Shown one piece after another: positions 24,794 through 63,152 of a stretch of DNA of 64,000 bases. Position numbers and translations under genes: made by a program. The notes under the pieces were generated by a model. That model searched no databases. It had not been told where the DNA came from and saw only the letters and a list, made by a program, of their open reading frames with translations. How positions within the stretch are numbered: the first letter of the stretch is position 1; the number at the start of each line of letters is the position of its first letter. The stretch comes from Stentor roeselii (taxonomy: Eukaryota; Ciliophora; Heterotrichea; Heterotrichida; Stentoridae): contig RSEH01000199.1 of assembly GCA_006503475.1 (NCBI GenBank), positions 25,946 through 89,945 of the forward strand, written 5' to 3'.

Positions 24794-25543
24794 TTTTATA
24801 ACCATAAAAATAGCCCCCTTGAATATGATAAAAATTAAGTAAACTTCAAGTCTGTTTGGAGGTGAATCAATTACAATGACTTGAAAAGATATCAAGACAC
24901 AGAGAGTGACATAAAGAATGATTTAAAGAAGGATTGACACTAAAATTACAGTATTTAATTTCTTTCCAGAAATGATGATTCACTGATTGATTAAGTTTGC
25001 CTCTGAAAAGTCTTAAGTATAATAAACGAAATCTATGAATTTTTGATGGATCAAGCATACTTTCATTTAAATATATCAGGTAAAGAGATATCTAATTCGT
25101 AAGATTGAATTTATCGATTCAGTTAAATATTATGAGAAAATAATTGAAGAAATTACTAAATAACCAAATAATGAGAGACAATGAACTTTGGAAAATAATT
25201 TGAGTTAGATCTCTTACTATAGCTAGTACCTTTAATGTCACTAAACAATATTCTCTTTATAAAATATTTTAATTATAACTATTATGAAGTAGTAATAATA
25301 TCGATGATAGTTTAACAGATGAGATTGGCATCATTTCATATTCAATTATATTTATCTTTGTGAAATATCCAATAAAGGTTTTATTAAATCACTTTCAATT
25401 AGATCTTTGAGAAAATTCAAGCTCAATTTAAATTTTTCACAGAATAAAGTATCAAGTTACTTATTAGAAATGATTCAATACATATATATTATGCTGTAAA
25501 GTGGATTATATTTTAAGTACCTAACTAATCATTCTTCTTTCAT
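24794..25543. other. AT-rich interval, one weak frame
   Basis: On the minus strand 24867-25058 is open from an ATG (MLDPSKIHRFRLLYLRL) for 63 codons and overlaps the 5' flank of the B-box gene. It has no recognised motif and may be chance. Nothing else seen. Confidence 0.4.
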
Positions 25544-27835
25544 TTAAACCACATGATCGATTCTTTCACCATCAAAATCATTTTTATTTGATTTTTTCTG
25601 CTTGCCAGTATCAACTTGTGAAAATGTTTTGAATTCTTCTTTGACATCTCTTTCAGAAAATTGCAAGTCAGTAAAATCCTCAGCATTCTCATGATAAACC
25701 AAAAATTTGCTCTCTTTCTTATGAATAATACTCAAAGCAATAAAACTATAAAAACTTTGCATTAAACTCACATCCAACACTGAAAAAATAACGAAATTCC
25801 AAGTCCAATACTCAGAAAACGTGATACAAAACTCAAAAAAAACTAAAAAAATCACTCCACCCGCAACAATGGCAATGAAAACATCAAAAGCCGCAGAAAA
25901 TACCCTCAAGCGACGATCTCCAAACGCATAAAACCTTAAAAAAAAAGCAGGAACAATAAAAACTTGAGCCAAAGTCCATCCAACAGCCCCTTTATTGATT
26001 TGAACCTGATAACAATCAATAAAGCTCTTTTCATGTCTTTCTAAAGAAGAATCAAAATAAGCACAAAAAGCGCCAATTAAAGCAAAAATTAAAATTTCAG
26101 ATGAAAAAAATTGTAAAGAAATCAAAATTCTTTGATTTTTTGGTTGTTTTATTAAAAGTCCTGTTAATGGATAGATTTTTATGAATTTTCTCCAAAATCC
26201 TGAATATTCGAATTCCTCATCTTTTAGGATTTTTCTGTCAGATAAACTGAAGAAAATTAATGAAAAAAACATGAAAAATGTTAGGATTGAAAGGCAGGAT
26301 AAAGGACCAGCTTTGATCATGCATGAAGCTGTTGTTATATTGAATGATTCACTTGTATAATTGATACATGTTGAGCAGTTTATTTGGAGTTGGAATGAAC
26401 CTGATTTTGGAATTATCAGGTCATTTATGGTAGCTTCTCCGTTTTTTAAGGTGAATTTTTTACTTTTTCCTTTTAGTTTGGTTGAAGGATCGACGGTTAT
26501 AAAAAAGTTTAGAGGTTTTTTTGGGATTAGGTTAGAATACAAGTTATCAGTGATGCGGATTTTGAATTTAAATGATTCTCTGGTATTGCTTGGGAAGGAA
26601 TCTTCATCTCTATCAATTTCTATGTAATTAGGGTAAACATGTATTCCTTGGTTAATATCAAGATGATTATAATCTTGGGTAACATTATGATATATTTTAT
26701 AATAAAAATATCCAACTTCTGTCAGGTAAACGGTCTTTTGAAACTGTCCTTTATTTGTGATAACTTGAAATCTTGATTTTTCATTTAAAAATGATCTGTA
26801 ATATGTTAAATTTATGTAATCCACATAAAGATTATCGTCCTCTCCATATATTTTAGTCGTGAGAATAGCATCAGTGAAGCAAGGCGCACTGTTAATATGA
26901 AACTTAGATTCGATTCTATGTACTTTATTCTTCACAGTAATTACTTGAGTTGAGTATGCAGAATCGTATCCGTAAGCATTAGCAACTACCCTAAAAGTTC
27001 CTGAAGATATTATTTTAAAAAAGTCTGAAATCACAGTTAAAGATCCAGTTTTCTTTAAATCAGGTGGGGATGTTCTAACTCCTGAACAGCCACTATAAGC
27101 ACATTCCAAACTGATACTTACTTCAACATTTTCCATAGAGCCAGTTGAAACTTTCAAGTTTACCATTTCATCACTCAAATAAATTCGAGATTCAAAAGAA
27201 GTGATAATTTTTAATTGTTTTTGTTTTACCTTAACATTGACAAAAGTATTTAATCCAGTTATTTTATCTCTTACTTGTAATTTATAATTCCCTGAGTAAA
27301 GAAAATTCCAGTTTCCTGTATATGTTCCACTTTCAGCGATAACAGAAGAACTTAATTCACTTGATGAAATCATGAGTTCAACTGAATCACTCCAATTGAT
27401 ATTGAATTGATCCATTATTTCCACTGATAATGGAATATTTGTTTGTGACATCACTGTATTTGGAAAGAATATCAAAATATTCTCGATTGCTTTAACTATT
27501 GGTATTGATTCTGAATATGAGGATGATATTAGTTCTGATGAATTTTGATGACTTGAAGTTGCGTTTATTTGGAATGATCCTTGCGATTTGAATCGCAGGT
27601 TATTGAAGGTTGCATGGTTGCTTATTAAGAGACTTTTTAGATCTCCTTCTAAACCTAAAGGGAGAGACGATAAGGTGATCTCGGCATCTTCATCTGAGCA
27701 ATATACTGATAATGAGAATTTATTTTGAGTGCTATTAGGCTAAGTGATTAGTACTGTTATTGGAATTAAGATTTTTAACTCAGATCTTACGATTTGAATC
27801 AGGAAGGAATATTCTAGCAGGTAGATCAATTTCAT
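25544..27835 (-). CDS. Large-ectodomain multi-pass membrane protein, family member 1
   Basis: About 758 residues after removing a 15-nt intron at 27740-27754 (GTACTAATCACTTAG). The start ATG 27835 encodes a signal-like peptide (MKLIYLLEYSFLIQIVRS). Then come about 430 residues of beta-rich, Ig/Big-like repeats with paired cysteines. A Cys-containing hinge (SCMIKAGPLSC) leads to the first of about five membrane helices. Hallmarks of the tail are HPLTG followed by PKNRR, a LIGA helix, YFDSS, and a GWTLAQVFIVPAFFLRFY helix. The C-terminus is short, charged and cytosolic. It is 146 nt from paralogue 2 on the same strand. I do not recognise a named family; a cell-surface receptor or adhesion role is inference from topology. 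Confidence 0.8.
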
Positions 27836-27857
27836 ATTGATTAATATTAGAGCTATT

Positions 27858-27872
27858 TTTATAGGAAAAATG
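27858..27872 (-). promoter_or_regulatory. Family promoter motif CATTTTTCCTATAAA
   Basis: This 15-nt motif lies 22 nt upstream of the start codon of family member 1. The same sequence occurs upstream of members 2, 3 and 5. It is conserved while surrounding non-coding sequence is not, so it is a candidate core promoter. Confidence 0.65.
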
Positions 27873-27981
27873 TATTTCAATGTTCCACTTTTATGAGATA
27901 AATCAACAGAAATATATAAAACATAGATTATTAATCAAATCTTATCTCTAATTATTTCTAATCAATAAACTACTAATTACC

Positions 27982-30260
27982 TTAGATATTATGATCAATT
28001 TTATCGCTTACATATAGTTGCTTTTCATCAGCTTTCTGAGGTGAATTTTTGTTCTCCGACTTACATTCTCTCTCAGAAACTTGCAACTCCTCAGTAGAAT
28101 CAGGAACTTTTTCAATATCCTTGAAAAAAAATGTCTCTTTATAATGAATTATCAAAACAGCGCCAACTGAATAAAAACTCTGAGAAAATAAGATATCAAC
28201 TAAAGCAAAAATTATAAAAACGATTGACCAATAAGTTGAAAATCTTACACAATTATTTATACAGATCCCTGAAATAATACTAATCGAAAGGAACACCGCA
28301 AAAATATTAACAAAAAATGAGTATTTTACGAATTTTTCATATCCAATCGAATAAAACCGTAAAATAAACGATGGAATAATAATCACTTGTGCAAGAAAGA
28401 ATCCTATTGCTCCTTTTCGTAGGTGATTATTATAGTCTTTATTGAAACTTTTAGAATATCTTTCTTTAGATGAATCAAAGTAAGTGAAAAACGCTCCAAT
28501 CAGTGAAAATATCAAAAAAGTAGAGGAAAATAAATGCAAAGATGATAAAATTCTTCTGTTTTTTGGCTGGCGGATAAAAATCCCTGTTAATGGATGAATG
28601 TGCAAAAATTTGTAGAATAATTCAGATATTTTTCTTTCTTTATATTTTTCGGTTTTTCTGTCTAAAAAGAAAAAGAGAGTAGATAAAGACACCATAAAAA
28701 ATAAAATAAATGAAATGCAGCAAATAGGCCCTGTTCTTATAGTGCAAGATGCTGAGCTTATTTTAACACTATATATGGTGTATATTTGGCAGGTAGGACA
28801 ATTTATTTTTATTCGATAATTGCCTGGCTTTGAAATAACAAGGTTGTTAACTTTTGCTTTACCATCTTTTGTTGTTATGAAACTATTACCTTCTCTAAAT
28901 TCTACTTCAGGATAAATACTAATTTTTAAAACGACTGGGTATTTTGAAAGATAGCCTCCATAATCTTTAACAGATATTTCAAAAATAAAAGATTCTCTAT
29001 CATTTTTCGGTAGCCAATCTTCGTCATAATCTAAAGTTATTAAATTTTCTGTTAAGTCAACTGTCTCTGAATAAAACCGATTATAATCAATATAAATCAT
29101 AAAATAATTGTAAAAAAATGTTGAATAATCGTAATTTAATCTTGTAAAATAAACATTTATCTTTGCAACCCCTGAATATGAAATCGCGTAAAAGTAATTT
29201 GAAGTATATATTTCTGTGATAATAATAGATTGGGTATATTTATCTAATTCGTTATCAGAATCATAAACTTTTATTTTCAAAGTAATTTCAGTAAAGCAAG
29301 AAGTTATATCTCTATCGAAATCAGTATCAATCCTTAAAATATAATTTGTCGCTCTACTTGAAGACTTTGATAAAACAACTGGGTATCCATCAGCACTAGC
29401 TTGAAACTGAAAAAAACCTGATGAGTTTAAAAAAAATCCTTAAATATCACAACTCCAGACCCCTTTTCAATTAATTTATCCAAATAAGGTCCCATTTCAT
29501 ATTTCCTCAATGCTACTCCAAAGCAGTTTTCAAGACACGAAAGCATTAATGTAACCTCAACAACATCTTCATTTCCAGTGTCCACTTTGACTGTAATCGG
29601 CAAAGAGCTATTAATTTTGATATGATTAAATTCAGAATAAATTTCTAATCTTTTTTCATTAACCCTAACAAATTTTTGACTCATCACACCACTATCCTTA
29701 TCTTTTACTTCAATTGTAACGAAGCCTATCTGATCAAAAATTAAATATTCTTGTAATAGGCCATTAACTATAATAATATCAAAATTAACTTGTTTATATG
29801 AGAGATTAATTGAAACATTATCAACCCAATTGTTTTTAAATTGATCTTTTATAGAAATTTTAAGAGAATGAGTCGTGTTCATCATCACTTCTTCAGGGAA
29901 GTCTATTAATATGTTTTTCTCTGCTTCTAATACTGTTATTATTTCAGATGAAAATGATGAAAAAGATGAATTTAATGGATTTGATTTTGCAGTGATTTTA
30001 TATGTTCCTTTGTACAAGAACCTTAAATCGGTTATCTCGAATTTAGCTTTTTTCACTTGGTTTACAAGAGTTCCTATCAGACCTAAAGGCTCTGATGAAA
30101 GAATTATCTCTGAATCTTCTAAAGAGCAGAAAATTGTAGCTGAGAAAATGTTTTGATTTGTTTTGGGCTAAGTGGCGAATACTGGATTTATTATGAGACT
30201 AACGGAAGAAAATATCATTTGGGTGAGAGAGGAAGCTAAAAGAAAGCGAATACATCCCAT
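27982..30260 (-). CDS. Large-ectodomain multi-pass membrane protein, family member 2 (frameshifted)
   Basis: A paralogue of its neighbour. ATG 30260 gives a signal-like peptide (MGCIRFLLASSLTQMIFSS). A 15-nt intron at 30168-30182 (GTATTCGCCACTTAG) is at the same site as in members 1 and 5. The ectodomain frame runs to 29427 and is lost at a run of eight T (sense strand, 29429-29436). One extra T would restore a continuous frame into the rest of the gene (27982-29280 and just upstream), matching the paralogues (VIFKDFF then LNSSG). The tail has the family marks HPLTG, PKNRR, LIGA, YFDSS and FLAQVIIIPSFILRFYS. Either a pseudogene, a sequencing error in the homopolymer, or a slippage site. Confidence 0.7.
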
Positions 30261-30284
30261 ACTGTTATAAATTTAGCATAAATT

Positions 30285-30299
30285 TTTATAGGAAAAATG
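30285..30299 (-). promoter_or_regulatory. Family promoter motif CATTTTTCCTATAAA
   Basis: Identical motif 24 nt upstream of the start codon of family member 2, as seen for members 1, 3 and 5. Confidence 0.65.
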
Positions 30300-30923
30300 A
30301 TATAAAGTTCCATATTTTAGATTATTTTTGAGCTAGATGATACATATTATGGCAAAAGTTTAAATTTTTTTGATATTTATCTACCCTTTAATTAATGTCT
30401 ATTAAATAATCCCTTAAATGATATAATTTTATTTTTGAGAACAATCTTTAAAGATTTAAGAAATAAATCTTTTATGCATTCAACTAACAATAATTTCACT
30501 TTAAGTAATCACTATTCAATGAATATAGTTATTTTTGGAATACCTGAATAGACTGGAACTTTTGATATATAATAACTACATCTATAATTATGAGTGACAA
30601 AGCTTAAAAATTGTAATTAACGAGTGTGATTAAACTATTTATTTTTCTAAAAAAGTTGAAAATATAATAGATAGCTGAAGGTGATTGATTTTTAAGTCTG
30701 ATTATATAGAATATTACAGAATAGAGCCTATTCTGATAATTTATTAATCTGAAATCTTATATTACAGATTTTGTTCAAATCTAATACTTGAAAAAATTAC
30801 CGATATAATTAAATCAGCTTAATAAACCAATTATCCAATTACACTTTTCATCAAATAATAAATCTGGGTTATTTTCATAATAACTTTTAAAATATAGATG
30901 AATATAAATAAATATTAGAAAAA
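30300..30923. other. AT-rich intergenic interval
   Basis: Between the diverging family member 2 and the E2 gene. No open frame, motif or repeat was recognised. Confidence 0.5.
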
Positions 30924-31268
30924 ATGAGTTCACGGGTACTGATTAAGTTGAAAGATCTTTGCGAATCAAAACCTCGAAATGGCACTTTTTTTATTTTCGG
31001 TGATAGTTTGACTGAATTTGAAGGATATTTTATTGGGCCTATAAATTCTCCCTATGAAGGAGGGTTCTTCAAAACATTATGGTCATTGCCGAAGGATTAT
31101 CCTTTCCAGCCACCTAAGATAACTTTTGAAACAAGAGTATTTCACCCGAATATCAGTGAAGATGGAAAAATAGCATGTAGTGTACTTGATTACGAATGGA
31201 GTCCAGCAATTGTAGCTTATGATCTTACCCTATTGCACATTTGTTCATTTCTGGATAATCCTGTATGA
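30924..31268 (+). pseudogene. Ubiquitin-conjugating enzyme E2, 5' segment of split gene
   Basis: Encodes the first ~110 residues of a UBC fold: N-terminal helix, EGYFIGPINSPYEGG, YPFQPPKITF, the HPN motif in VFHPNISEDGKIACS, and WSPA before the cross-over helix. E2s carry ubiquitin as a thioester for transfer to substrates. The frame stops at FLDNPV-TGA, just where the final two helices should begin. Those helices are found about 2 kb downstream at 33240-33368, so the gene is split by an insertion. The expected catalytic Cys position (ICLDxL in typical E2s) reads IACSVL, with Cys shifted by one residue, so activity is doubtful even if rejoined. ATG 30924 follows ATTAGAAAAA. Confidence 0.85.
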
Positions 31269-31288
31269 GGTTTAATATTGAGATACCC

Positions 31289-31308
31289 GAGATCATTAGG
31301 TTCAATAA
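31289..31308 (+). repeat. Left imperfect terminal inverted repeat
   Basis: GAGATCATTAGGTTCAATAA pairs with 33188-33209 on the other strand, with one substitution and a few inserted bases. The ten bases GGTTCAATAA are identical. Confidence 0.5.
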
Positions 31309-32199
31309 ATAATGTTTATATTAATTTTAAATAAGGAGTTTTTTTAGAATAGAGATTTCAGATAAAATTATTATCTAATACATTTATATTATTACTGGTT
31401 TTTGTTGTATTGGGATGCATTGTGCCCATGGATCTAATTCTTCAAGGTTTCTTCCATATTATTAGTTTTATATTATCATATTAAGTGATATAGGATTCTA
31501 TATTAAATTTAAAAAATAACATATTAAAATGAGTGGAATATATCTGAATATATGGAAGATATAGAAGAAAAAACCTTTAATATCAACTGGATAGCACGAG
31601 GAATGAAAATAAACTGTAAAGGATAAATGATTTACATTAGAAGGTATCAAAAGATGAAAAGATATCATATTCGAAAATTACTGAGCGATATTAAAAAGAC
31701 GAACTACACAGACTTTTACTAGAACATGAAATAGGAAATAATGGAGGTCATCATCTAAAAAGAATGTATTTATCAAAATAAGAGCAAAGGTTTTGAATGT
31801 GAGAAATAAATTAATATTAAAACTTAGATTTTCTACAATTCAAAATAAAATCAATTGATATCTAATTTCGGATCTGAGATACGGAATGAAATGTTTCATA
31901 AAGCAACATCAGTTTTATATTGTTTTAAAAAATGAAGAACAATAAGGATAACTTCACAAAGAATGAATTGATGAAATTTTAATCATTAATTAAAAATAAC
32001 ATATAAATTGGTTCGAAAAAAAATTTCAACATGATAATTTTATAATATACTAAAAAAATAAAAGAAACCAAAAAGATACCGGAAAAGAAAAGTAGATAGA
32101 GGATGAAGTAAAAAATAATTGCAAAAGTTGATACATTTAATTATATAAACAAATAAACTAAAAGAAGTATAAATTTTAAAATATTTAAAACATCTACAT

Positions 32200-32600
32200 C
32201 TAGTATCCAATTGATGATTATTTTATACAATATGAAATGGTTTATTCAAATGATAAGAGAGCATTAATGATTATAGGAAAATCTGATATTGGTAAAACTA
32301 AATTATGCAAGATTGGTGCAGGATTTGCTATGATAACAAATTAAGAATCATTTAAAAATTTTGATCATAAGAAATTCTTAATCTTTGATGATTACAAGTC
32401 GTATATAACCATGATAAGGGAAAAATGGATTGAATTAATACATTGTGATGATGAAAGAAGAATAAATGTAAGCACTTATCTGTCAAGATCAATAAAGTCT
32501 CTAGAAAAGTAATCACATCTAAACAAACAATGATGTAATTTACTATTCAAAGAAGTTGGGCAGTTGATTGGCAATAAAAAAGAAGAGTACTTGAAATAAT
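32200..32600 (+). pseudogene. Rep-like superfamily 3 helicase, decayed or recoded
   Basis: The frame shows, in order and at family spacing, a Walker A (GKSDIGKT, 32276-32299), a Walker B (FLIFDDY, 32375-32395), a motif C-like VITSK (32509-32523) and KRRV (32578-32589) at the arginine-finger position. This order is typical of the SF3 helicase domain of Rep proteins from small circular DNA replicons. TAG at 32201, TAA at 32342 and further TAA codons interrupt it, and a shift of frame near 32505 is needed to reach motif C. None of the stops is inside a 15-nt intron. Upstream (31550-32200) continues as A-rich coding-like sequence where I cannot place the endonuclease motifs securely. Probably a relic; a code with TAA/TAG as glutamine is the alternative. 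Confidence 0.5.
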
Positions 32601-33187
32601 TATACAATATGGATGCAGACTACTAAAACCAGAAATATTAAGTATAAATAAAGATTAAAACTAAAAATGAAAGTCAATCAATATCAAATTATCAGTAAAT
32701 ATCAAATAGTAATCAAACGAAATCACAAAGAAATAATTAAATAATATGTAGACAGATTCAGATGAATTTAATTTTACCTCAGAAGTTAAAATTAACAACA
32801 AGAATGAAATAACATTTAATAACGCTAGAAAAAAAACAATGATATTATATTTAAGACAGTAATATCATAGAAAAAATTTTCTAGAATAACAGAAGAAATC
32901 AATCATATACTAATGAAAATCTAATCTCATTCAAAAATTTACAGAAATGATGAACAAGTTACAAGAAAACAAATGAAAATTAAAAAAAAAGTAGAATTTG
33001 AAGAATACATCAAGACGAATACAATAATGTATTGGTTTACAGACTAAAATCAATATCACAATCAATAAGAAAGATATAGATTCTTATAGGAATAAAATAA
33101 TTAACTAATTCGATTTTCTCAACTTTCAGCTATTCTCATTTATTATCCCAACCTCTGCTTTTTTAGGTTAAATTTCCAGCTTTTAAA

Positions 33188-33209
33188 TTATTGAACCAGG
33201 TATTATCTC
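33188..33209 (-). repeat. Right imperfect terminal inverted repeat
   Basis: Reverse complement ends in GGTTCAATAA, identical to the left end, and begins GAGATAATACC, near-identical to the left repeat. Confidence 0.5.
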
Positions 33210-33239
33210 AATCTCTTTTATTACATCACTACTGATACT

Positions 33240-33368
33240 AGTTGTGCTTTAAACGAAACTGCGGCGAGACTATATGATTTCGATAGAGAAAGTTATTATA
33301 ACATCGCAAAAAACTGGACAGAAAACTATGCTTCAGAAAATCCAATAAACCTATCATGGTTTTATTAA
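33240..33368 (+). pseudogene. Ubiquitin-conjugating enzyme E2, 3' segment of split gene
   Basis: Encodes ALNETAARLYDFDRESY then NIAKNWTENYA, the characteristic last two helices of the UBC fold (typical E2s: an EIA-containing helix, a DR-Y segment and a WT-KYA helix), then a short tail to TAA at 33366. It begins exactly where the 5' segment at 30924-31268 stops. The frame is intact, so the split looks recent or is repaired by removing the insert. No start codon of its own is evident. Confidence 0.8.
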
Positions 33369-58446: not shown

Positions 58447-58470
58447 AATTTCTCATAAATCTTCATTATT

Positions 58471-60774
58471 CTAATTAAAGTTATTTGAGTTCTCTTCTGA
58501 CTCCTCAGCAAGATGCATCTTTTGAGATTTTTTCGGCTTGGCTTCCATTTCACCTCGAATCATTCTACTCATAAAACAAAGACAAAGGAAAGAATAAACA
58601 ATTTGCACAAAGAAAAAATCAAAAAGTAAAAAAACCATGAAATTTATAATCCAGAATACAAAGTACCCAAGACAATATTTAATTGTCATGCCGATGATAG
58701 CGCCAGTAGAAAGTCCCATCAAGAGCAGCATGACCCCAGCAGTGATTTTCCCAGTTCTAACACTTTCCGCAGCTTTAAAATTGAAGTAAAATAAAGGAAT
58801 CGCCACAATCTGACTCAAGGCCCATCCAGTGGCTCCTTTATAGACTTCTGAATTTTTATAATCATCAAAGTTTCGGTTATAGTGAGTTGTAGGAGTGTCA
58901 TAATAGCCGTATATCGCACCGATCAGTGTCAACATCAGAAGTTCACAAGTCGCCATTTGCATCATCAAAAGACTTCGACGGTAGTTCGGCTGTTTGTAGC
59001 AAAGTCCTGAAAGAGGGTGAATTGCGAGTACTTTTATTGGAATGTAATTAAAGCTTTTTTGCTTTGAATCAACTGTCATTATGAAACAAGGGAAAATTAC
59101 TCCCAGGACTAACAAAAGAATCATTGCGATTAAAGGACCGTACCCGATATCGCAGTCGATACCTTCGATATCGTATTTTGAACTACTTTTCTGAGAATTT
59201 CCTCCAGCTGTTACTTTTATTCTATAACTTCCACCTGATTTCACGTAAAATTCACTTATATGGGCGTGACCGTTTTTTACTTTGTATTCTGTTACGCCTT
59301 CGTATGTTGAGGAGGGAGAAGTAGAGATTTCTATAGGAATGTCGATTTCTGTTATTGGGTCACCGTTGGCGTAACTTAAATAAACGTCGAATTCGAAAGG
59401 GTCTCTTACTGTCTCTGGTAAAGGGTCTGAAAAGTTAGTGATTTTTATTTTTATGCCTTCAACGCTTATCGTTTTAGAGTATCCTATCACTGAACCTGAT
59501 TGAGCTCTCACTTGACGTTTGCCGTAGCCTTCAAAGTAAACCTCTGCTTCTGTGAAATTTGTGACTTTGTTGCTAACATCACCACCTAGTAAATATCTTC
59601 TATTACTGATAACTTCATTAAATTTTACTGCTGCGGTATTTTTGTAGGGTCTTCCATCTTCTCCTTTTATTTCTACAGTTACGTTAAACTTCTGATAGGC
59701 TGAGATTTTTGTTTCATTTACATTTACTTTCAATGAGCCTACTTTGTTTGTGGTATGAATCAATGTTCCATAGCATCCATAGTTTGGATCATCGAGACTC
59801 TCATCAGCATCGAAAGCACAAATGTAAAATTCGCCTTGAGATAAAATTTTTACTTGGGTAAAATTATATTTTCCTCCTGAAGTAGATACTGGTTTAACTC
59901 TAGTACCTCCTCCATTAATTTTCGTTCCTTTGCAGTCATCCTCATTGTCTAAACAGTATAAATCCAGATAAACTCTAAGGTTTGCATCAGTAACATCTTG
60001 GTTTATACCATTCTGAGAAATTTGAAGTTGAACTGCAACCCAAAAAGTTTGATCACTTGTAACTTTTTGACTTGTTTCTAAAAATTCACTGATACTTGGT
60101 ATACTAATCAATGTTGACTCTACATCTACTTCGAGCGATGCCTTTACTGTCGGTTCTCCAACTACCTGAGCGATAATTTTATTGTTCTTTTTTGATTGAG
60201 GATAACAATTGAATGTCTCAACATTTCCAGCTTTAATAATAAAATTTTTAGATCTTTCACATCTAAAGCTGTCATCTTCCTTCTCTGAATATAAAGTCAT
60301 GTTTAGATCTTGTGGCCATGGCGAATCATCGAGTGTGCCGAGGACTGAAACTGAAATTGCGATGTTTCTTCCAACGCTTACAGATTCTGAACCTGAAATA
60401 ATTATAACTTTTTTGTAATTTTGCTTCACGGGTACTTCTTTTGATACGCCTTCAGAAAAATTTCCTCCATTGGCTTTAAATGTGAAATTTCCTGTGCAGG
60501 ATATGGTTAAATCTTTGAAATTAATAATTTTTGATAAGGAATTTGACCTTTTAACCTTTTGGCCATATAAGCAGCTGTCATCTTCAATAAGAGAAATAGT
60601 AATATCTTCTTGTCCTGTGAATTCAGTATTATTGGTAAGTCCAATATCTACATTAAAACTAATATCTTTTTCCAAATAGCCTTTCTAAGTGAAAATTACA
60701 ATAAAGTTCGAATCCATGATAACCAAAGAAGCATCTGAGTAAGCCCCAACAACAAGAAAAGCCAATAAGATCAT
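58471..60774 (-). CDS. Large-ectodomain multi-pass membrane protein, family member 4
   Basis: About 762 residues. ATG 60774 gives a signal peptide (MILLAFLVVGAYSDA), and a 15-nt intron at 60685-60699 (GTAATTTTCACTTAG) joins it to the main frame. The ectodomain is ~500 residues of beta-rich repeats with several Cys pairs and N-glycosylation sites. The hinge CDIGYGPLI precedes about five membrane helices with HPLSG, PNYRR, LIGAIYGYYD, GATGWALSQIVAIPLFYFNF and a final FFVQIVYSFLCLCFMS. The cytosolic tail is Lys/Glu-rich. The most divergent member, with a degraded form of the promoter motif upstream. Stop TAA. Confidence 0.8.
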
Positions 60775-60884
60775 ATAAAATATAGGATAAATTATTCGAA
60801 TATGTTCAAAATGGAAACAAAATCTCAACACTTAAACATAAATCATAAAATTTTTGAAATTTTTAAAATCTATCTTTATCTACC

Positions 60885-63152
60885 CTAATTCTCCGAATCT
60901 TCATTTTGATCATCATCAGATTCAAGTTGTTTCTTTCTCTTAGTTCCACTTTGTTCATCTTTAAGTTCTCCAGTCAACTCAGAATGTCGATGCTCATGAT
61001 TCAAGGCATCTCTAACCTTTAAAGGTATCACACAAATAGCGACCAAAGTATAAATGACCTGCATAAGCACAATATCAAAAAGAACAAAAATCAAGAAATT
61101 CGCAGTCCAATAATTCGAGTACCCGATGCAGTACTTGACAGTCATTCCGATGATCGCTCCAAAGCTCAAAGCAACTAAAATAATGCAAATAGTCGCTGTG
61201 TACTTCCTCAACTCCTCAAACCCAATCGAGTAAAAATTCAAAAAAAAGATAGGAATAATCCCTGCCTGAGCAAGCGCCCAACCAGTCCCTCCCTTATAAA
61301 GTTGTCTTGCATAGTAATCTGTGAATTTTCTCTCATACCTCTCAATAGGTGTGTCATAATAAGCGTATATCGCGCCTATCAATGTAAGTGTCAATAGCTC
61401 TGAAGTGAATAATTCTAAAGCAACAAGAATTCGACGATTTTTAGGCTGTCGGATGAAAATCGCGATAAATGGATGAGTGTGAATGAAACGATAACCAAAT
61501 TCTGAAATTTTGAAGTTTTGGTAAGTTTCTGTGTTGCGGTCTGCGAAGAAGAAGATGACGGTTGTTATTATTATGAAGAAGATCAGAACTCCCATGCAGC
61601 CTAAAGGACCTCCGCCGAGACGACAGTTGGTGGAATCGATTTCGAATTCTTCGGATGTGTAAGTTTCACATGAACTGCAGGTTATTTGAAGGTTGTAGGT
61701 TCCTGACTCGGATACTATCAGGTCGTCGATTGTTACTTTGCCGTTTGAGGTTTCAACCTCATCTTGTTTTCCGTCGAAGTCTGCTGAGGGCTTTAGTTCA
61801 AAGATGATTTTAACATCGTGGTTTTTTATTGTTTTGGAGTTTTTGTTGTCTTTTACGTAGAGGTCGAAGGAAAATGACTGCTCGGTGTTGCTTGGAAGCC
61901 AATCATCTTCTATGTAGTCTAACTCGAATTTATTTGGCTTTATATTTATTGGGTCGGATTTGAAGGTTTTATCGCTTAGATTTGTGGATATTTGATAAAC
62001 GGCTTCAGAATCAATTTCTGTAAAGTAAATGTTTCTTTTATCTATTCCTCTATTGGTTTCGAATGTGAATACTGGGTCGCTTGATGTTCTATCTTCGTAT
62101 GTCATGTTAACCTCAGCTGGATACAAGTACGGCTCATCGTCCTCACCAAGAACTGTGGTAGTTAATTCAACATCAGTATACCCAGATGTACTTGACTCAC
62201 TAAAACTAGCATTGACTTGTTTGAACTCGTTATTAATAGTTATCAGTTCTTTCGATATAGTCGATGGATACCCTTTTGCTGTTGCTATGAAATTAAAAGG
62301 ACCAGATGATACGATGCGGAAATTTTGGAAAACATAGACTCCATTTATTTGCTTTGTAATTTGAGTAACAAGTTTATCTTGTTGAAATTCTTTCATCTTT
62401 GTTCCTGAGCAAGCGTCTGTTTTATTACAGGAAATTGTTAATGTGACGTCGATATTTTCTGTTGAGCCGGTTTCAATCATTACATTGAAAAGATACGAAC
62501 TAGGGTATGTTCCAGTATAACCATATGCAGTAAGTTTAAATGATTTTTGAGTTACCTTTACATTCATGGTTTTAGTTTTGCCACTGTTTTTGTCTCTTAC
62601 AACTAGTGTGGTTTCTCCTATTTCGTTAAATGAAGCAGTACCCTTATATGATCCACCTGTAACAGTAGCATCAGAACTTGTTTTATCTGCGGTAATTGTG
62701 ATACTAACATCATCTATCCAATTAGCATTGTTTTGGTCAAGTATTTCTATGGTAAGATCATAGCTCAAGCCAACCATAACAGTTTCGGGAAAAATGATCG
62801 AAATTACCTCATCTGCCTCTTCTAGTTCCACTGTCGCTGAATCATCAGCTGGATCATCTTCATTTGAGTTTTTTGCTATAATTTCATATGTTCCTGCAGA
62901 TTTAAATCTTAAATTTTTAAATTCAATGGTTCCATCCTTTTTCACCTCTTGTGATAAGTTTCCTTCCAAAACAGCATCACTAGATGATGATAAGGTTATA
63001 GTCTTATCAGTTGTTGAGCATGCTACTGTTGCAGAAAAGTAATTTTGAGTGGTTTTAGGCTAAGTAATTGTTACTGATTTAACTTCTAGCGTTATATCAG
63101 ACTTAACAAAAATAATGATGAATGAACAGACTAAAAATTGCGGGAATCCCAT
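60885..63152 (-). CDS. Large-ectodomain multi-pass membrane protein, family member 5
   Basis: About 750 residues. ATG 63152 gives a signal peptide (MGFPQFLVCSFIIIFVKS). A 15-nt intron at 63060-63074 (GTAACAATTACTTAG) joins CCTAAAACC, the same junction as in members 1 and 2. The ectodomain has Ig/Big-like repeats with Cys pairs (SCNKTDACSGTKM). The hinge CRLGGGPLGC is followed by membrane helices with HPFIAIFIRQPKNRR, LIGAIYAYYD, GGTGWALAQAGIIPIFFLNF and VLFDIVLMQVIYTLVA. The tail is acidic and charged. The full architecture is intact, so this is the best reference for the family. Confidence 0.85.

Follow-up and report, generated by a model that had tools for sequence, protein, structure and literature searches.

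In Blepharisma and Paramecium, the majority class of eliminated sequences carries a TA-containing boundary repeat. The Blepharisma germline is described as holding about forty thousand eliminated sequences, of which about three quarters are bounded by TA and 6,566 have direct repeats other than TA, and inverted repeats are common and heterogeneous among them (PMC9942856). The locus reported here, an E2-like gene split by an insertion, resembles sequences of the Blepharisma type in that the interruption is intragenic and precise, has a direct repeat at its boundary and inverted repeats near its ends, and would restore the gene frame if excised. It differs from them in three ways: the assembly that contains it is apparently somatic and shows no excised copy, its boundary repeat is CTG and not TA, and it greatly exceeds in length the short size classes to which most eliminated sequences of Blepharisma belong (PMC9942856).

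Replicons that encode a Rep protein offer a second comparison. Whole CRESS genomes are integrated in the genomes of Entamoeba and Giardia (PMC7493932), p4M-like Reps have been connected with CRESS viruses (PMC6668415), and the genes of at least five cruciviruses can be read only with a relaxed, ciliate-like code, a ciliate host range having been argued for cruciviruses from such genetic-code hints in one study (PMC7468197). Like the endogenous CRESS/Rep elements of Entamoeba and Giardia, the present locus has a single small AT-rich insert with a P-loop remnant that would be Rep-helicase-like; unlike them, it showed neither an HUH domain nor a database match, inverted motifs lie close to its ends, and a 3-bp direct repeat flanks it. 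The size of the insert is near that of a small CRESS genome. Cut-and-paste DNA transposons with 3-bp target duplications also exist as a class, and the insert shares with them a short direct repeat and inverted repeats near the ends; unlike such transposons it has no transposase recognised in five + strand frames and no other copies, and its repeats are subterminal.

In this paper, we have analysed the insertion within a 64-kb window, by which we mean the whole stretch of DNA studied (C115:25946-89945), and in the genome assembly that contains it (44,391,514 bases in 522 contigs, about 44.4 Mb). The reading that we prefer, with a probability of roughly one half, is that of a fixed, decayed and precisely inserted foreign DNA element in the E2-like gene.

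Results

Genetic code and nature of the contig

Read with the standard code, the window contains 27 stop-to-stop frames that reach 250 codons or more. Each of 14 inspected long frames has 0 to 7 TAA or TAG codons, mostly near one of its ends or closing a 15-base GTA..TAG stretch, and when GTA..TAG stretches of 9 to 30 bases were counted, 15 was the commonest length (27 cases; other lengths 10 to 23). An early in-frame TAG closes such a 15-base stretch in three paralogous genes; these stretches, of the form GTA..ACTTAG, lie near the gene starts on the - strand, at 63060-63074, 60685-60699 and 27740-27754, and they look as a conserved 15-nt intron would be expected to look. The telomere-type unit CCCTAACA, taken three times over, had 547 matches in the assembly (220 forward and 327 reverse), and its reversed control had none. 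Among the matches listed, the forward repeats lie within the first 80 bases of contigs, and the reverse repeats on contig C31, the only reverse case checked for position, lie at the contig end.

Because of the long standard-code frames, the 15-base introns and the telomere repeats, the host appears to be a heterotrich-type ciliate with standard stop codons, which we take to be Stentor-like, and the ciliate origin that the sequence-only reading had assumed is borne out. Blepharisma has the telomere unit and 15-16 base introns as here, but reads TGA as tryptophan (PMC9942806). The contig itself looks somatic, judging by the 27 long uninterrupted frames and by the telomere repeats in the assembly.

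The interrupted E2-like gene

The features of the locus are collected in Table 1. Translation of the 5' segment gives a UBC fold through FLDNP that is recognised by Pfam as UQ_con, and translation of the 3' segment gives SCALNETAARLYDFDRESYYNIAKNWTENYASENPINLSWFY, followed by TAA. These 42 residues matched no Pfam family when searched alone, and they pair in the alignment with the C-terminal part of the paralogs, which upholds the earlier description of an E2 gene split in two.

Table 1. Features of the interrupted E2-like gene and of its insert, in window coordinates
Feature	Position	Strand	Evidence
E2-like gene, 5' part, UBC fold	30924..31263	+	UQ_con E 4.2e-26; paralog alignment
CTG direct repeat, left copy (target duplication or microhomology)	31261..31263	.	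Four equivalent best joins
Insertion, 1971 bp including one CTG, 23.4% GC	31264..33234	.	Empty site against three paralogs; single copy
Left subterminal inverted repeat: ATTGAGATA (31277-31285), GGTTCAATAA (31299-31308)	31277..31308	+	Pattern search, shuffles
Remnant frame, Walker A GKSDIGKT (32276-32299), Walker B FLIFDD (32375-32392); SF3/Rep-like ATPase proposed	32132..32533	+	Motif shuffles
Possible remnant of motif C, RKVITSKQT, out of frame with the Walker motifs	32503..32529	+	By eye
Right subterminal inverted repeat: GGTTCAATAA (33188-33197), ATTGAGATA (33204-33212)	33188..33212	-	Pattern search, shuffles
CTG direct repeat, right copy	33232..33234	.	Paralog joins
E2-like gene, 3' part, intact frame, TAA stop	33235..33368	+	Paralog alignment; frame

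A genome search with the 5' part returned 40 matches at E <= 0.001, self included; since the nearest other match is only 54% identical, no near-identical intact copy of the gene was found by this search. Four of the 40 matches (L006, L007, L008 and L009) were compared with the window gene. In the column of the canonical active-site cysteine, as defined by L009 (GSICLD), the window gene has alanine (codon 31173-31175, in GKIACS), and L006, L007 and L008 are also without cysteine there, so that these three and the window copy make up a small E2-like group lacking the canonical-column cysteine. The window gene has a cysteine one residue downstream of this column, within the stretch 31164-31181. 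It is best named E2-like, and may be a non-catalytic variant. In a comparison of codon positions with the three paralogs, the 3' part differed slightly more than the 5' part, and neither relaxed nor kept constraint was clearly indicated.

The empty site

To place the insertion, 64 x 67 = 4288 joins were tried, and the 832 that yielded a protein of at least 130 residues were scored against the three nearest paralogs, L006, L007 and L008. The best score was common to four equivalent joins, from 31260|33232 to 31263|33235. This tie is the ambiguity created by the CTG direct repeat, and the insert therefore measures 1971 bp with one CTG included, as against the ~1.95 kb first claimed. The empty site is placed at CCTG|ATAC of the E2-like gene with a three-base ambiguity; at the best join the paralogs are matched without a gap, and removal of the insert restores the gene frame, just as the sequence-only reading had argued from the intact E2 frame on both sides. 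The site is supported at the DNA level by L007, which has CCTGATAC at the same codons: L007 reads GATGATCCTGATACAAGTTGT, and the window empty site reads GATAATCCTGATACTAGTTGT.

The insert is A-rich (A 891, T 618, G 260, C 202), and in a DNA search it was a single copy in the 44.4 Mb. A 30-base query spanning the empty site found no insertion-free form in the assembly with up to 3 mismatches.

The ends of the insert

Near its left end the insert carries the motifs ATTGAGATA and GGTTCAATAA on one strand, and near its right end it carries both again, in unchanged order, on the other. These repeats start 13 bases inside the left junction and 19 bases plus the CTG inside the right one; they are thus subterminal and not at the very ends. 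Searched genome-wide as a pair with a gap of 0-16 bases, they were found once forward and once reverse, only at this insert, and the reversed control gave 0. A collinear exact-match pair as good as this one turned up in 1 of 20000 dinucleotide shuffles, in 4 of 18729 internal pairs and in 4 of 19890 pairs drawn from the AT-rich part of the window at 10-34 kb, by a statistic that was picked after the motifs had been seen. The gapped local alignment of the 70-base ends, which was run first, is only mildly unusual, since shuffles did as well in 89 of 3000 cases and internal pairs in 107 of 4652. The imperfect inverted repeats that had been noted by inspection are confirmed as a two-motif pattern, and the paired motifs were found nowhere else in the genome.

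On the right side of the insert, TTTTATTAC (33216-33224) lies beyond the inverted repeat, towards the insert end, and is reminiscent of replication-origin nonanucleotides ending in TATTAC. Because TATTAC (33219-33224) occurs also at 31390, we place no weight on it as an origin motif. A CACTA-like reading of the right end was rejected by eye for its wrong orientation.

The coding remnant

The + strand of the insert carries a frame with Walker A and Walker B motifs (Table 1). The frame is broken under the standard code and open only if TAA and TAG are read through as glutamine, codons that the host appears to use as stops; one in-frame TAA (32342-32344) lies between the two Walker motifs. Only 25 residues separate GKT from FLIFDD, a close spacing as in SF3/Rep helicases. 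Walker A and Walker B at such close spacing were found in 0 of 10000 shuffled inserts, and Walker A alone in 100. The spacing limit of this count is post hoc, having been relaxed from 28-45 to 20-45 because the narrower one missed the insert itself. A ciliate code inside the insert is not supported by frame length, as 651 of 1000 shuffles reached the 148 codons of the longest TGA-free run.

As a reference Rep we used that of plasmid p4M. The P-loop frame aligned with its helicase part at a score of 48, reached by 4 of 400 shuffles, and two-sequence BLAST of the frame against p4M Rep gave E 1.9. With p4M Rep as the query, the whole genome, insert included, yielded nothing at E <= 1, and the best match of the p4M HUH part to the insert was out of register, with a score reached by 17 of 400 shuffles. 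Neither Pfam, on five + strand frames, nor NCBIfam, on two frames, matched an HUH endonuclease domain in the insert, and a genome search with PF02407 found no match anywhere, the controls being equally silent. On the P-loop stretch PF00910 was not listed at E <= 10, a miss that carries little weight for a decayed frame because p4M Rep, our yardstick, matches PF00910 itself only at 0.013 (and PF02407 at 3.1e-7). The genome search with PF00910 is uninformative: its 37 matches at E <= 1 do not include the insert, and 14 of 14 control genomes also matched. No p4M relative was confirmed among the genome contigs or the viral contigs, and the plasmid collection returned only p4M itself.

None of the wider database searches put a name to the content of the insert. 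Pfam gave nothing above its cut-off for five + strand frames of the insert, and no transposase family among them; the best match was Ependymin_amoebozoa at E 0.003 (frame 32534-32842), which we took as compositional, and the P-loop stretch alone matched AAA_24 at E 0.0068, under the cut-off of that family. NCBIfam gave 0 matches for two insert frames. PHROGs gave 0 for the P-loop frame and, for the frame at 31489-31935, three unknown families with a best E of 0.0034. With the P-loop frame as query, PDB sequences gave no relevant hit, plasmids gave only ABC-type ATPases, at E 7, and no relative turned up among viral contigs, a collection that may be without Rep viruses because two generic Rep motif patterns found nothing there. 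AlphaFold models had mean pLDDT values of 41.0 and 39.2 and were unusable. Within the genome, three insert frames had no convincing relatives. For the P-loop frame, L003 (E 0.0125) was set aside as chance, with no Walker motif seen by eye in the L003 frame, and so was L004 (E 0.104), where the match lies opposite a long frame that we recognised, as we take it, as RFC1-like; the non-self matches of the two other insert frames were all at E >= 0.114.

Discussion

A proposed decayed element

The insert has the look of an inactive mobile or virus-like element. We infer that a foreign element of about 1.97 kb moved into the gene, inserted precisely between CCTG and ATAC with CTG left as a 3-bp direct repeat, and later decayed in place. 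The subterminal inverted repeats would be the marks of the element's ends, and the P-loop ATPase remnant on the + strand would be most like the SF3 helicase part of a Rep protein. In the apparently somatic chromosome, as assembled, the insertion cuts the E2-like gene short after FLDNPV-stop, and the gene would be disrupted in the working nucleus. An origin from a Rep-encoding plasmid or virus is weakly supported, no matching family, PDB entry or structure having been found. That the E2 flanks are intact while the insert is decayed is awkward for an old, never-removed insertion. The sequence-only reading had offered an eliminated sequence or a recent mobile insertion; both alternatives still stand, and it is the word recent that fits poorly, because the content of the insert is broken. 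Neither the P-loop remnant nor the missing canonical cysteine figured in that reading.

A possible eliminated sequence

The insert might instead be a germline eliminated sequence, perhaps derived from an element, that was retained here or assembled from germline reads. This we consider less likely than the decayed element, though it accounts for a good deal: a site that is precise and restores the frame, a direct repeat at its boundary, inverted motifs close to both ends, and E2 flanks that are both in frame while the frames of the insert are broken. It is opposed by the lack of an empty form in the assembly at up to 3 mismatches, by the 27 long uninterrupted frames, which make the contig unlike a germline of the Blepharisma type, and by the single occurrence of the insert and of the paired end motifs. 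The boundary repeat, CTG and not TA, also speaks against it, but does not by itself exclude elimination because Blepharisma has 6,566 cases with non-TA direct repeats. A PiggyBac excisase was looked for in the genome with PF13843, which gave no match at E <= 0.001, a weak negative because the controls gave no match either. If this were germline DNA that escaped removal, precise DNA elimination in a heterotrich could be tested at this one locus.

Possible capture of foreign DNA

It is unlikely that end joining at a double-strand break took up foreign DNA, linear or circular, CTG then being a microhomology and not the footprint of a transposition. A direct repeat of only 3 bp, a single-copy insert and the absence of a recognised transposase from the five + strand frames would all suit such a capture, for which the integrated CRESS genomes of Entamoeba and Giardia (PMC7493932) are a precedent; inverted motifs near both ends would be unexpected, unless a circle had been opened within an origin stem-loop. 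A more specific proposal, and one that we consider quite unlikely, is a CRESS-type Rep element from the replicon of another ciliate, whose circle was opened inside the origin stem-loop, hence the inverted ends, and which may now be an eliminated sequence; another ciliate is invoked because the element would be read with TAA and TAG as glutamine, codons that the host appears to use as stops. If the ATPase were truly Rep-like, the locus would put a CRESS-type replicon on record for a ciliate. Among the titles listed from the open-licence literature, none reports a Rep element integrated in a ciliate.

Improbable alternatives: misassembly and splicing

An assembly misjoin of unrelated DNA is very improbable, as neither E2 continuity nor a 3-bp repeat on both sides would be expected from one. 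A long spliceosomal intron, which the 5' junction GTATGA and an ACTAG near the 3' end might suggest, is scarcely conceivable, because 0 of 135 GT-AG pairs restored the E2 (the best pair scored 819, the empty site 1048 and the gene left unspliced 812) and the introns recognised in the window are of 15 nt. Compared with these readings, a decayed foreign element remains our preferred one, and as things stand the locus is one decayed insertion.

Surroundings of the insertion

The region from 10001 to 34000 is AT-richer (23-34% GC per 2 kb) than that from 34 to 64 kb (31-44%), and has fewer long open frames. Adjoining the E2-like gene, a membrane-protein paralog on the - strand (27877-30479) shows by eye an apparent frame change near 29.3-29.47 kb, which is absent from its relatives at 25529-27880, 58453-60846 and 60843-63152, and which may reflect a pseudogene, a missed intron or a sequencing error.
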